From: a virus | Strand: one strand, 5' to 3' | IMG/VR virus record: IMGVR_UViG_3300025168_000498 | Span: 1 to 27,928 of that record | Length of the DNA: 27,928 bases | In this document: piece after piece, positions 13,743 through 20,515 of the stretch | Layout of the letters: the number at the start of each line of letters is the position of its first letter | Position numbering within the stretch: the stretch's first letter is position 1 | Position numbers and translations under genes: made by a program | The notes under the pieces: model-generated | The model's input: the letters and a program-made list of their open reading frames with translations, nothing else | Told to the model about the DNA's origin: nothing | Database searches by the model: none

Positions 13743-14066
13743 ATGGAAACGATTATAATTAATCAGTTATGTTTGACAAGTGAATCATCTTTAAGTGGTG
13801 TGGATAGTGTGAAATTGGTGCAAAGTGCTAACACAAGCCCATTAGACGATGATAAGAAAGCACAAGCAAGTGGTGGAATATTTGTTGTCGCTAGTGAATC
13901 CAATGACGAACTAGTGGCTTGTGTAAAGAGTAAATTGACTAATGTATTAGCAGATAATGTAAAAGTATGTGATTCTGGAACATTATGTAGTGATAAGAAA
14001 AGAGTTTGGTTATCTTTTGAGAGAGTTAATAAAGATAGTGGAACATCTACAAACGCTAGTATATAG
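13743..14066 (+). CDS. Small hypothetical protein, first rightward gene
   Basis: A 107-residue protein starting METIIINQLCLTSESS, preceded by AAGGA about 14 bases upstream of its ATG. Ser/Asp/Val-rich with four cysteines. A central stretch ASGGIFVVASESNDELVACV followed by KSKLTNVLADNVKVCDSGT suggests a small alpha/beta fold. Being the first gene of the early block, followed at once by a terminator-like hairpin, it would be transcribed as a separate early message, as host-takeover proteins often are. I do not recognise the family, and that role is inferred from position alone. Confidence 0.6.
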   Translation: METIIINQLCLTSESSLSGVDSVKLVQSANTSPLDDDKKAQASGGIFVVASESNDELVACVKSKLTNVLADNVKVCDSGTLCSDKKRVWLSFERVNKDSGTSTNASI

Positions 14067-16018: not shown

Positions 16019-16459
16019 ATGAGTAACAATGAAATGATACTTAAAGATGTAATGGCTGCATTAGATTCAACTGCTGAGCAAATAGAAGCAGAGAAAAACA
16101 TTACATGGGAAACTATAAATGATATAAAACAAAATGTTACAATGCATCTTAAGGAAAGATTAAACTTAGGTGCTGAGAAATATCAGAAAGAGTTACCAAT
16201 ATTTACTATTGACGATGAAAATCGTGACAATTTGCTTGAATGTGAGTATGAAATACTAGATGGATTAAATTATTCTAGTGCAGCACGCATGAAAGCGGCA
16301 GAATTTGGAGATGATAAGATAAAAAATGCTTATAGAATCCAGATAACAAGGGTTATTGCCCACTTATGTTATGCTTACTATAACTTAAAAGTAACGCAAG
16401 ACATAATAAATAATATTAATATTAATAAGAAAGATCCGAGGGAGGATTCAAATGAATAA
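16019..16459 (+). CDS. MazG-like all-helical protein (possible nucleotide pyrophosphatase)
   Basis: A 146-residue, largely helical protein. Residues about 47-60 (RLNLGAEKYQKELPIF) and 71-90 (NLLECEYEILDGLNYSSAAR) follow the pattern of phage MazG-like or dATP/dGTP pyrophosphohydrolase proteins, where a GA-x-KY segment precedes an E-x-x-x-E...D helix that binds metal; here E74, E78 and D81 are candidates. Such enzymes hydrolyse (d)NTPs or alarmones. The second metal-binding helix typical of MazG is not clear, so activity is uncertain. Its 3' end overlaps the ubiquitin-like gene by eight bases, placing it in the same message as the conjugation cassette. Confidence 0.45.
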   Translation: MSNNEMILKDVMAALDSTAEQIEAEKNITWETINDIKQNVTMHLKERLNLGAEKYQKELPIFTIDDENRDNLLECEYEILDGLNYSSAARMKAAEFGDDKIKNAYRIQITRVIAHLCYAYYNLKVTQDIINNININKKDPREDSNE

Positions 16460-16685
16460 TACAAGTATGACTATTAAGTTGATGTATAACAGTTCTAATT
16501 TTGCTGATACAGAGTTACCATCAAACGTAACATCTGTAGGACATCTTAGATCGCACTTAGGTGTAGATTCAAGAGCCGTAGTAAATCTAGACGGAGTAGT
16601 ATCAAGTGATGATACAACATCATTGAGAGATGGTGGCTACGTTGCTATTGTTAAATCAGATAAAACTGGTGGAGACAATGCATAG
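16452..16685 (+). CDS. Ubiquitin-like beta-grasp protein (Ubl), MoaD/ThiS-type
   Basis: A 77-residue protein with the beta-grasp layout: strand MTIKLMYN (6-13), second strand with TELPSNVTS (20-28), helix VGHLRSHLGVDS (29-40), strand AVVNLDGVVSSD (42-53), then TTSLRDGGYVAIV (55-67). The last part matches the V-N-G...L-x-D-G-D-x-V pattern of MoaD/ThiS and bacterial Ubls. The chain ends KTGGDNA: Gly73-Gly74 is placed where Ubls are activated, with three extra residues that a JAMM peptidase could remove. The ATG follows GGGAGGATT and overlaps the MazG-like gene. It probably acts as the transferable protein of the E1/E2/JAB genes just downstream. A sulfur-carrier role is the main alternative, but no MoaE- or ThiG-like gene is nearby. 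Confidence 0.8.
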   Translation: MNNTSMTIKLMYNSSNFADTELPSNVTSVGHLRSHLGVDSRAVVNLDGVVSSDDTTSLRDGGYVAIVKSDKTGGDNA

Positions 16686-16709: not shown

Positions 16710-16749
16710 GTGTGGCTATCTTTTATGTGAGGGCATGGGATAGTCACAC
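16710..16749 (+). other. Intercistronic hairpin between Ubl and E2-like genes
   Basis: GTGTGGCTATC (16710-16720) pairs with GATAGTCACAC (16739-16749), 11 bp with one G-T pair and an 18-nt loop. It lies 25 bases after the Ubl stop and ends 12 bases before the SD of the E2-like gene. It could protect the Ubl message end or reduce downstream expression, giving more Ubl than enzyme. Confidence 0.55.
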
Positions 16750-16774: not shown

Positions 16775-18928
16775 ATGGCTGAAGCTAGAAATGGTAGAGA
16801 TTATGATATGAAAACTATTGAAATAGATGATTATAATCCAGATTTAAAATCAGTGTCAAAAGAAGTTATTGTTGGTCCAAAGAATAAGGTAATGAAAGAT
16901 ATTGAGACTTTAAACTCACAATATTTAACAAGACCATGGATTTACGGCAATAGAAGTAGATTACCAATATTAAAACCATTGGGAATCACAGAAGCATTTA
17001 ATTGGAAAAGAGGATATAAACAAACTATCATCGAAGCAATTAGATCACGATTTGATCAATATGGAAAAGTAAATGGAAGTTTAGATTTGCTATTAAATAG
17101 AAGACCACAAAGAATGGAGTGGGATAAGAAGCAATTTATAAAGAGTTTAATTCTAATTGATCAACAACTACGAGACTTAAGAGGACAAGGTGTCAACTTT
17201 GGTAATCAAGTAGAAAAAGCAATGGAATCTATAAATGAAATAAAGCTAATATTGAAAAAACAATACAAGGCAGTAGAAGAGTTTATAGAAAATTCAGAAT
17301 GGAAAGACAAAGTAGAATTAAATATGTACATAACCTTTCCAGAAGTAAAAGATGGTTGGATAGAAACTATGAATCTATCTAAACATGCAAAAGAAGTCAT
17401 CAAATGGCAGTGTTCTAAGTTAGTATTTGAAGTTTGGTATAAAGAATCAAATATACAAGTTCAATCTAATGGAGGAAACATATTGGGACAAGTTCCATTA
17501 AAACCATATGGGTTATCTTTTGGTCTTAAATTAGAGGAATATATAAATCTAATTCAAACTAAGGGTGATTTGCAAAATATTAATGCAACGAACTTTCAAA
17601 GAAGACATTATGGATATAGTAGAACATATTCTGATTTAGCTGGAATGAGAGCAGAAAGTAATAACAATAGTTATAATTGGGACGCACATTGGCCTAGTAA
17701 AAGAATAGAAAGTGTTATTCCAAATGGAGAAACTAACGATTATAGTGATAATTACGAATTATTACATCCATTTCTTCATAAAGGCTCTAGATCATATTCA
17801 AGCAGAGGTTCAAATGGAGTTACTATGTTCCATAAATGGGTAGAACAAGAAGATCTAGCAAAAACTGGTATTTGTTTTGGTAATCTGGAAACAGAAATAA
17901 CAGAACATTTAGTAAAGTTAGATCTTGTTGGTTTATTTATAACATTAACACTATGGAAAAGATATGAAATGGGTTCAACTGGACCTTTGAATCATATTAG
18001 CAAATCATTTCATGGTATGCCATCACAATATTCAAATGAATTTAGTATGGCAGTTGGAAAGAACCTGATAGACAATGCTTTGATGATGACTGGAAATATT
18101 GTTAGTCAAGATGTAATTATCAATGGTTGCACAACAAGTTGGTTATCTCCAAGGTTCCTAGAACCAAGAAGAGCTGAATTAATTGCAAATCATAAACCAT
18201 CTCTTGAAGAAATGAATAAAAGAGCAATATATCAAGCAAATTACTCAGATGGTGGAGGTAGAAGATATAGCGGTTTAGATGATTTCTTTACAGTAGAAAA
18301 TCTTTATTGGCTATCAAGCGATTCTTATCCAGAAATCAATAGAGAAATTCAATTTGAAGATGCATTAAATGAAGATGAAGAAATTGAAATGCGTGTTATG
18401 AATTGGGATATATTTGATCCTAAGTGGACTTTGAACGTTAAAGTTTTTCATAGGTCAACATATTCAAAAGAAATGTTCAATGATGATGAAGGTGATTATT
18501 GTGATTATTACGATAAAGCTTCAGATATGCATAAAGAAATAGCAATTTCTTTTGCTTATGCTTACGTAGAATATGCTGATAACATAGAATGTCAATTACG
18601 TGAAAAGTGTTATTGGTATCAATCCTTAAACTATATGATTAAAAAGTTGGAAGGTGAAATACCAGTTGATGCAGTGTCTTTTGCAGAATCATTAGCAATT
18701 AATAAAGCAGAGATGGATGTTGTAGAAGTAGCTCCAGATCCTGAATTATTACCCTTTGATGAAGGTTATGAAGATGCAACACAAGTATACGAAAGGTTGG
18801 CAGATGAAGCTATGGAAGAAGAGAGTATAGCAAACGAACAGCACAATGATGATATGGATCAAGAAAATGAAATAGCAAATCAAATGCGAACATGGGTTTC
18901 AGCATTGAGAGGAGGAAACAATGGCTAA
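16775..18928 (+). CDS. E2-like (UBC-fold) protein with large extensions, 717 residues
   Basis: I chose the ATG at 16775 because AAGGAGG lies eight bases upstream; a GTG at 16712 falls inside a hairpin. Residues about 180-260 (VELNMYITFPEVKDGW, KLVFEVWYKESNIQVQS) could be the beta-meander of a UBC fold. Residues 331-370 carry HPFLH followed about 30 residues later by GICFGN, the arrangement of the HP-x-(V/I/L)...G-x-C-(L/F)-G signature of prokaryotic E2-like proteins. Cys367 is the predicted thioester residue. It is followed by VKLDLVGLFITLTLWKRYE, as in the helix after the E2 cysteine. The remaining 300+ residues at each side have no family that I know; the C-terminal 60 are acidic. The end reads ALRGGNNG, overlapping the next gene's SD. 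Probable Ubl-conjugating enzyme, possibly with its own target-binding parts. Confidence 0.7.
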   Translation: MAEARNGRDYDMKTIEIDDYNPDLKSVSKEVIVGPKNKVMKDIETLNSQYLTRPWIYGNRSRLPILKPLGITEAFNWKRGYKQTIIEAIRSRFDQYGKVNGSLDLLLNRRPQRMEWDKKQFIKSLILIDQQLRDLRGQGVNFGNQVEKAMESINEIKLILKKQYKAVEEFIENSEWKDKVELNMYITFPEVKDGWIETMNLSKHAKEVIKWQCSKLVFEVWYKESNIQVQSNGGNILGQVPLKPYGLSFGLKLEEYINLIQTKGDLQNINATNFQRRHYGYSRTYSDLAGMRAESNNNSYNWDAHWPSKRIESVIPNGETNDYSDNYELLHPFLHKGSRSYSSRGSNGVTMFHKWVEQEDLAKTGICFGNLETEITEHLVKLDLVGLFITLTLWKRYEMGSTGPLNHISKSFHGMPSQYSNEFSMAVGKNLIDNALMMTGNIVSQDVIINGCTTSWLSPRFLEPRRAELIANHKPSLEEMNKRAIYQANYSDGGGRRYSGLDDFFTVENLYWLSSDSYPEINREIQFEDALNEDEEIEMRVMNWDIFDPKWTLNVKVFHRSTYSKEMFNDDEGDYCDYYDKASDMHKEIAISFAYAYVEYADNIECQLREKCYWYQSLNYMIKKLEGEIPVDAVSFAESLAINKAEMDVVEVAPDPELLPFDEGYEDATQVYERLADEAMEEESIANEQHNDDMDQENEIANQMRTWVSALRGGNNG

Positions 18929-19874
18929 TTTCTACATTAAAGAAGCAGAATGGAATAAGATACAAAATTATTGCAAATATGCTTGGGATGAGCATAAATC
19001 AGAAATAGGAGGAATGATGCTTGCCGAAAAAGATAAAGAAGGTAAATGGAAATTGTTTAAACCTTCTATACTAAAGCAAATAATATCAGCGGGTAATACC
19101 GTTTTAGAGAAAGAGGCTTTATCTCACTACTATATTGAAGTGGGAAAGAAGTATGCTAAAAGAAATGTTCAATTAGTGTGGTGGCACAGTCATCACACTA
19201 TGGCTGCATTTTGGTCTGGAACAGACTTAACAGCAATTGATGAAATGTCAAATGGTAATATGTCAATATCATTGGTAGTAAATCTTAAAGAAGAATACAA
19301 ATTACGTGTTAATCTTTGGAAACCATATCCAATGCATATAGATACTGAACTAGACATTATCAGAAATAAACCTAGAAACAAAGTTCCAAAAGGCATAGTG
19401 TCTGAAGTTGATATGTTATGTGAGAAACCAGTAATGCCAAAGTCAACAGCATTTTCTGAATATCAACGAAAACATAACAATACGTCTTGGACATATAGCA
19501 ACCAAGGAACATTGTTTCCAAAACAAGATCAAGAGTTAACTAACTTAGAAGTTAAAGTAGATGATATTTTAACTGACTATGCTTGGGATAGGATTAAATT
19601 TTATCAATATCATGATGCAATTAAAGCATTAAATGATGATTTAATAAAATCAGATTCTGAACTTAGAGTAGCTTTTACTTCTAAAGATAAACTAGATACT
19701 TGTATTCATACAATGCCAAGTGATAAATGGATCTATAGCAAAGGTAATAAATTTAGTTTGGAAGATGCTTTAATAGAAGCAGATGAAGAGCTATATGATT
19801 ACGGATGGTATACACGAAGTTACGAAGATGATCTAATCAAGACTGATAAGAAGTTATTGGAGGTATTAAAATGA
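18921..19874 (+). CDS. JAMM/JAB (MPN) metalloisopeptidase
   Basis: A 317-residue protein. The N-terminal 150 residues are a JAB domain: Glu28 in HKSEIGGMML, then WWHSHHTMAAFWSGTD with His89, His91, Ser99 and Asp102, the full E...H-x-H-x7-S-x-x-D zinc site of deubiquitinase-type JAMM proteins. Such enzymes cut after Gly-Gly, either maturing Ubl precursors or removing Ubl from targets. Residues about 160-317 are a helical, acidic extension of unknown role, containing two similar segments (ALNDDLIKSDSELR and DALIEADEELYDY), perhaps for substrate binding. The ATG is preceded by AGAGGAGG and overlaps the E2-like gene by eight bases; the end overlaps the E1-like gene by four. A phage-tail JAB (lambda gpK-like) is unlikely: no NlpC/P60 domain and far from tail genes. 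Confidence 0.85.
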   Translation: MANFYIKEAEWNKIQNYCKYAWDEHKSEIGGMMLAEKDKEGKWKLFKPSILKQIISAGNTVLEKEALSHYYIEVGKKYAKRNVQLVWWHSHHTMAAFWSGTDLTAIDEMSNGNMSISLVVNLKEEYKLRVNLWKPYPMHIDTELDIIRNKPRNKVPKGIVSEVDMLCEKPVMPKSTAFSEYQRKHNNTSWTYSNQGTLFPKQDQELTNLEVKVDDILTDYAWDRIKFYQYHDAIKALNDDLIKSDSELRVAFTSKDKLDTCIHTMPSDKWIYSKGNKFSLEDALIEADEELYDYGWYTRSYEDDLIKTDKKLLEVLK

Positions 19875-20515
19875 ATGTAAATCAAAGATATAATGCAATT
19901 GTAGATAACTTTGATTCCTATACATATCACATACTAGGTTGCGGAGCTATAGGTAGTTCCGCAGCTACCCAATTAGTTAGAATGGGTGCTACTAATCTTT
20001 ATCTTTATGATAGAGATACAGTAGGTGCAGAAAATATAGGAGTTTCAATGTTTAATCAAAAACATATAGGTTCAACTAAAACGGAAGCGTTAGAAGAAAT
20101 GTGTTTAGAAATTAACAATGATTGCAATATAACATGCTTTCAAGGAGAATTTGAAAAATATTCACCATACAACAATGATATAATTATCTTAGGATTTGAC
20201 TCTATGTCTTCAAGACTAGAAGCAGTAACTAATATATTAGATCATAAAAAACCAGATTATTTAATAGATGGTCGTATGGGTGCTGAACATTATCAGCAAT
20301 ATGTATTCAAAAATCCAACACTTGCAAAATATAAACTTACATGGTATAGCGATGAAGACGGAAGTTCAGAACCATGCAATGCTAAGGCTACAAGTTATTG
20401 TAGTAATATGAGTGGAAGTTTCATATCTAATACTATTAGAAAAATTTTAATGGAGCAACCTTATAATAAGGAGTTCTCTTTTAATTTTCCTACAATGTAT
20501 TTAGATTGCAAATAA
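19871..20515 (+). CDS. ThiF/E1-like Ubl-activating enzyme, minimal form
   Basis: A 214-residue Rossmann protein. The ATP-binding site is LGCGAIGS (22-29), followed by an acidic residue after strand two (LYLYDRD, Asp47), then AENIGVSMFNQKHIGSTKTEAL where N55, K64 and K70 occupy places of the E1 ATP-contact residues, and the conserved GFDSMSSR (108-115). Cys169 (SSEPCNAK) or Cys177 (ATSYCSNM) follows the crossover region and precedes SGSFISNTIRKIL, as the catalytic or zinc-binding Cys does in ThiF-like proteins. It would adenylate the Gly-Gly end of the Ubl. It is a bare adenylation domain, shorter than eukaryotic E1 or Bil-type E1. ATGA overlap with the JAB gene links the two. A MoeB/ThiF sulfur-transfer role is the alternative. 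Confidence 0.85.
   Translation: MNVNQRYNAIVDNFDSYTYHILGCGAIGSSAATQLVRMGATNLYLYDRDTVGAENIGVSMFNQKHIGSTKTEALEEMCLEINNDCNITCFQGEFEKYSPYNNDIIILGFDSMSSRLEAVTNILDHKKPDYLIDGRMGAEHYQQYVFKNPTLAKYKLTWYSDEDGSSEPCNAKATSYCSNMSGSFISNTIRKILMEQPYNKEFSFNFPTMYLDCK

Follow-up and report, generated by a model that had tools for sequence, protein, structure and literature searches.

A virus of marine bacteria carries a gene for a small ubiquitin-like protein (Ubl), and this gene raises the question of whether its product has to be trimmed before use and, if so, whether the JAMM metalloprotease encoded nearby is kept for that purpose. A first-pass annotation had described the protein as a Ubl in which Gly73-Gly74 is followed by Asp-Asn-Ala, and had made the JAMM enzyme responsible for both its activation and its removal. 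The DNA analysed here (the window) is a stretch of 27,928 bases with 33% G+C from a virus record. In the gene survey, the minus strand carried the terminase together with further structural genes and the plus strand the replication genes, which is the layout expected for a tailed phage; the source is a marine bacterial virus. The features relevant to the question are the following.

16452-16685, plus strand: Ubl, 77 aa, ThiS/MoaD/ubiquitin-like beta-grasp protein, predicted mature end at Gly74
16668-16673, plus strand: Gly73-Gly74, invariant di-glycine (45 of 45 aligned Ubls, 86 of 86 distinct Ubls)
16674-16682, plus strand: Asp-Asn-Ala tail, predicted pro-peptide (absent in 27 of 86 Ubls; unconserved and 1-117 aa long in 59 of 86)
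16710-16749, plus strand: stem-loop directly 3' of the Ubl gene and before the 717-aa gene (-22.5 kcal/mol, z -4.0)
16775-18928, plus strand: 717-aa protein, probably E2-like, with candidate catalytic Cys367 at 17873-17875 (conserved Cys, weak structural match)
18921-19874, plus strand: JAMM/JAB metalloprotease, 317 aa (E28, H89, H91, S99, D102)
19871-20515, plus strand: E1-like ThiF-family adenylyltransferase, 214 aa (GxGxxG, R6, D47/D49, N55, K70, D110, C169, C177)

The four genes thus run in the order Ubl, 717-aa protein, JAMM and ThiF-type E1, and short overlaps of a few bases join the last three. The reading that we favour, with moderate confidence, is that they form a phage-encoded Ubl conjugation module, in which the tailed Ubl precursor would be cut after Gly74, most likely by the module's own JAMM, and in which the conserved duty of the JAMM would be to remove the Ubl from its targets.

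Judging by its predicted fold and its family profile, the 77-aa protein is a genuine beta-grasp Ubl of the ThiS/MoaD/ubiquitin type, as the first-pass annotation had proposed. The AlphaFold model, for which 45 viral homologues were aligned, has a pLDDT of 82, falling to low values in the last block at the tail end, and shows the bbabb topology of the beta-grasp fold. Its best structural neighbours in the PDB are Mth1743 (Z 8.8) and ThiS in the ThiS-ThiF complex 1zud (Z 8.1); MoaD, ubiquitins and CsUb are further neighbours. The family profile matched MoaD among PDB sequences (E=0.0028), and the family consensus, which is a computed and not a natural sequence, matched Pfam ThiS over the cut-off (E=4.4e-6). 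As a single sequence, the window Ubl retrieved nothing meaningful from Pfam, PHROG or NCBIfam, and a tblastn search with it gave no match in 50,697 phage records. The C-terminal Gly-Gly that goes with the beta-grasp superfamily is found in every one of the distinct relatives.

At 16662-16685 the plus strand reads AAA ACT GGT GGA GAC AAT GCA TAG, that is, K71 T72 G73 G74 D75 N76 A77 stop, so the C-terminus is the one first described. In the alignment of the 45 divergent viral Ubls, the mean column identity is 26%; G73 and G74 are the sole invariant columns, and K71 is kept at 90% or more. Gly-Gly is missing from none of the 86 distinct viral Ubls pooled from several scans, and this invariance upholds the choice of Gly74 as the conserved end. 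Because the two residues are fixed while their codons vary (GGT, GGC, GGA, GGG), the constraint acts on the protein. It should be noted that the gene after the Ubl begins at 16775 with its own AAGGAGG, and therefore the Gly-Gly of the window Ubl does not owe its presence to a ribosome-binding site.

Past the Gly-Gly, the 86 Ubls have no common sequence. The protein stops exactly at the di-glycine in 27 of them and continues in the other 59, mostly for only 1-3 residues; the lack of a consensus at this point is expected if the cut is read from the Ubl side. The commonest first tail residue is Asp, largely through one clade with Asp-Gln. The state changes between tail and no tail at least 11 times on a tree built from 88 E1 rows and at least 8 times on an E1+JAMM tree of 55 rows, both counts being approximate, with several weakly supported branches. 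A one-base difference in the stop codon is enough to add a tail, as is seen in two near twins (GGA TAA in L051, GGA TAC TAA in L049), and the Ubl of the window's nearest relative, L006, ends in DQS where that of the window ends in DNA. The fixed Gly-Gly and the free turnover of what follows, taken together, support Gly74 as the mature end of the Ubl and Asp-Asn-Ala as a putative pro-peptide. Frequent in-frame stops just 3' of the Ubl gene may help to keep tails short.

Longer tails of 18, 21, 31, 60 and 117 aa were also seen. After K-T-G-G, the Ubl continues in frame into a 117-aa C-terminal region in L172 (2288-2878) and into 60-aa regions in L025 (674-1111) and L031 (4004-4441). These forms are in effect Ubl fusions, recalling the ubiquitin-ribosomal protein fusions; no separate-gene copies of the three long tails were found in the fetched loci. 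In the clade of L077, L083, L094 and L099-L111, the Asp-Gln tail has been kept while the clade diverged and its Asp codon changed synonymously; in no other instance is there a hint that a tail is under selection.

The JAMM protein matches Pfam Prok-JAB with E=3.6e-5, slightly below the curated cut-off, and carries the motif E ... HxH(x7)SxxD as E28, H89, H91, S99 and D102, all at 100% in 47 distinct relatives. The two histidines lie at the positions under which they had first been numbered, and the gene, which had been said to adjoin the Ubl, is intact and two genes away. A scan for the JAMM pattern in 84,980 cellular genomes, of a type that detects close relatives only, returned no relative. 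In viral contigs, a scan with the JAMM protein gave 257 relatives, of which 80 were kept as a first set of loci; the E1 and the 717-aa family were present in nearly every locus with room for them. Because these loci had been found through the JAMM, its constant presence there proves nothing, and a second set was therefore anchored on the E1 by alignment search (nearest 80 of 385 relatives). A JAMM gene with intact motif was present in 76 of 76 informative loci of this set, namely all 74 in which the upstream sequence reached 1 kb or more, plus 2 in which it was shorter, and the 4 loci without it have at most 332 bases upstream; the E1 seeds all came from JAMM-bearing loci, so that more distant relatives may lack the gene.

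Viruses with tail-less Ubls are among the E1-anchored loci with an intact JAMM. Maturation therefore does not account in general for the presence of the enzyme, and we rejected the idea that the JAMM is kept mainly to mature the Ubl, as it is equally present beside Ubls that have nothing to trim. Likewise, the claim that conjugation depends on the JAMM for activation finds no support across the family: 27 of the 86 Ubls already end in Gly-Gly, and the JAMM is still kept. Trimming is needed in tailed members only, and retention of the enzyme where the tail is absent means that a genetic dependence between the two cannot be demonstrated. The conserved role of the JAMM is probably deconjugation, with trimming an extra task.

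For the tailed members, the E1 would make trimming a requirement. The 214-aa protein matches Pfam ThiF with E=4.8e-19 (68.9 against a cut-off of 28.1 bits) and is of the short ThiF type, lacking a Cys-domain insert. Its Rossmann motif GCGAIGS is invariant in a 14-row alignment, and the residues listed above are conserved over 67 distinct relatives, among them the nucleotide-binding loop, R6 and C169, with C177 at 97%. Enzymes of the ThiF/MoeB/E1 type adenylate the C-terminal glycine of their substrate, and ThiF and MoeB read the free Gly-Gly of their partners; the Ubl model resembles ThiS and MoaD as they occur in complex with ThiF and MoeB, respectively. Asp75-Ala77 must therefore be removed, and the description of the window Ubl as a precursor stands, in that its three-residue extension would have to go before the E1 adenylates Gly74.

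Which protease would do so is best judged from known systems. The pro-ubiquitin of Caldiarchaeum subterraneum, with 9 residues past GG, was shown by mass spectrometry to be refractory to E1 until the JAMM protein Rpn11 cleaves it (PMC5654768), and BilC is reported to expose the C-terminal glycine of BilA (PMC11354881); Iyer et al. (2006) proposed JAB trimming for the Ubls of phage tails (PMC1779556). By the archaeal precedent, the JAMM is the obvious candidate for the maturase of the tailed Ubl, and most likely is that enzyme. The earlier assignment survives to the extent that JAMM maturases of Ubls do exist, and fails for the tail-less members, which do not need one. It is unlikely, in our view, that the tail is instead trimmed by a host protease or carboxypeptidase and that the JAMM acts on conjugates only. 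Such an arrangement would agree with the fact that JAMM presence does not follow tail presence, and tails of mostly 1-3 aa could be within reach of general peptidases; however, the long tails require a specific cut past the Gly-Gly, and the JAMM precedents just cited speak for the resident enzyme.

With regard to the 717-aa protein, the window sequence gave nothing meaningful in Pfam, PHROG or NCBIfam, and tblastn in 50,697 phage records gave no match. Foldseek of its model against the PDB found no match, while a BFVD search with the model returned six viral proteins, apparently of the same family. No significant sequence similarity to known E2 families was found; hhalign of the family was not significant against two human E2s. 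What the family does have is a conserved pattern: Cys367 in 117/117 members, preceded by [HFY]-P-[YF]-[IV] (P332 in 115/117) and followed by W394 (116/117) and P404 (117/117). The residue before the proline is H331 in 64/117, and its spacing to Cys367 is longer than in classical E2s. When residues 157-414 of the model were compared with the E2 UbcH5b (2esq; VIA), a weak match was obtained (Z 3.4, 121/149 residues aligned). Pattern and structural match together tentatively suggest that the protein is a very divergent E2.

The same protein ends in LRGG-NNG, and we considered whether it might be a second Gly-Gly-tailed modifier. This was rejected for the window, where the codons for RGG (AGAGGAGGA) serve as the ribosome-binding site for the JAMM gene, which overlaps at this point. 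Among its relatives, only about 16 of 109 have Gly-Gly near the C-terminus, and a Trp is more widely kept there. One group (e.g. L029, L042, L047, L048, L056) has W-A-x-x-G-G-A-x-N-L at this end, which in some relatives cannot be a ribosome-binding site, the JAMM gene lying 9 to 3315 bases off.

A further alternative, which we also regard as improbable, is that the Ubl is no protein modifier but a sulphur carrier that forms a ThiS/MoaD-like thiocarboxylate; removal of the tail would still come first. ThiS and MoaD are indeed the closest folds, the family consensus matches Pfam ThiS, and the E1 is of the short ThiF type without a Cys-domain insert. Nevertheless, no sulphurtransferase, thiazole or molybdopterin gene was found among the scanned window proteins, and one protein of the module has an E2-like motif whose Cys is invariant. 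That the tail simply stays on and is irrelevant, the Ubl working without a free Gly74 carboxylate (e.g. as a non-covalent scaffold), is very unlikely: tail gain and loss do appear neutral, but this would leave Gly73-Gly74 and K71 as the most constrained positions, and the intact E1 and JAMM, without a reason.

Returning to a conjugation module, the course of events that we infer would be as follows. The Ubl would be made as a precursor in which Gly74 is followed by three dispensable residues; the bond between Gly74 and Asp75 would be hydrolysed by a protease, most likely the JAMM of the module; the ThiF-type E1 would adenylate the carboxylate thus freed on Gly74; and the Ubl would pass to Cys169 of the E1, then probably to Cys367 of the 717-aa protein, and finally to a target. 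The JAMM would recognise the Ubl body and the Gly-Gly and cut anything downstream. Its main work would be to strip the Ubl from targets, trimming being a by-product of this activity at the Gly74 end. If it cuts after Gly74 in this way, tails would be harmless and could come and go by stop-codon mutation.

Modules of this kind, with Ubl, E1, E2-like protein and JAMM, are already known from bacteria and archaea. The C. subterraneum operon (pro-ubiquitin, E1, E2, RING E3, Rpn11/JAMM; PMC5654768) resembles the window in the short peptide past the Gly-Gly of its Ubl and in the position of its JAMM gene next to the E1. It differs in being archaeal and in having a RING E3 and eukaryote-like E1 and E2, whereas the window module belongs to a bacterial virus and has a short ThiF-type E1 and a candidate E2 that has diverged strongly; a RING protein was not found in the viral module. 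The Bil system (BilABCD) and related bacterial E1-E2-JAB-Ubl operons follow the same four-gene logic (PMC11354881; PMC1779556, rows 6a-6d). BilA, however, has two Ubl domains, and the bacterial BilD E1 combines inactive and active domains with a Cys domain, while the viral module has one Ubl domain of 77 aa and a single 214-aa ThiF domain; having neither the two-Ubl BilA nor the two-domain BilD, the viral module does not belong to Bil. In the PRTRC system, PRTRC_A is the best NCBIfam match of the JAMM, and the E1 also matches PRTRC_ThiF, but the scores are far below the NCBIfam cut-offs (17.2 vs 101.8 bits and 23.8 vs 144.75 bits), so the module was not assigned to it either. Lambda tail proteins I and K (TAPI Ubl, TAPK JAB; PMC1779556) likewise pair a phage Ubl with a JAB partner; they are tail assembly genes without an E1, whereas the window module is separate, has an E1 and lies outside the structural cluster.

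Further parallels are gp79-gp78-gp77-gp76 of crAss001 and the operon of Flavobacterium phage FpV4, in which the genes stand in the same order, the E1 is clearly homologous and the JAMM motif is shared. These operons encode a protein with a beta-grasp-like N-terminus, a protein of about 430 aa with an invariant Cys-x-Gly, the JAMM and ThiF. Unlike the window Ubl, their Ubl-like part extends 110-190 residues beyond a conserved K-x-[IV]-[KR]-S-G-[AG] and does not end near Gly-Gly. When the crAss protein of about 430 aa was compared with the 717-aa family by hhalign, the match was not significant (E 0.07), the alignment falling on the Cys-x-Gly stretch. In the records, the only annotations given to the crAss-like and FpV4 operons (L003, L004, L005, L086-L090) are 'thiamine biosynthesis protein' and 'metalloprotease'.

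Accounts of Ubl conjugation in prokaryotes have so far dealt chiefly with defence in bacteria and housekeeping in archaea. In the open-access literature, to which our search was confined, no paper was found that describes the window-type or the crAss-like/FpV4 module as a conjugation module. It is quite possible, if short of probable, that a complete E1-E2-Ubl-JAMM module, acting during infection on proteins of the virus or of its host, is carried by marine tailed viruses in their hundreds and, as a separate case, by crAss-like phages of the gut, and that recutting of the Ubl by the resident JAMM makes the tail a free zone that accepts fusions (as in L172 and L031), as in eukaryotic ubiquitin fusions. 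A conserved virus-borne module with naturally tailed and tail-less Ubls would offer a ready test of what the JAMM is for, be it maturation, deconjugation or both, and it supplies new compact E1 and JAMM enzymes together with a candidate new E2 family.

Two further observations concern other parts of the window. A 107-aa protein that heads the plus-strand genes (13743-14066 in the window, 1762-2109 in L006) ends in 'RVWLSFERVNKDSGTS', which resembles the last strand and end of a longer type of Ubl (L017, 'VFLSFMRDDKTGG'); it is possibly a second Ubl-like protein that lacks Gly-Gly, profile support for this being absent. A strong stem-loop just 3' of the Ubl gene is present in many relatives as well, among them L006, L013, L051, L058, L061 and L065. 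Its sequence varies from clade to clade, and its mean z is about -2.8 over 76 relatives (mononucleotide shuffles). A short transcript of the Ubl alone may be protected by it, so that the modifier would be made in excess over its enzymes.
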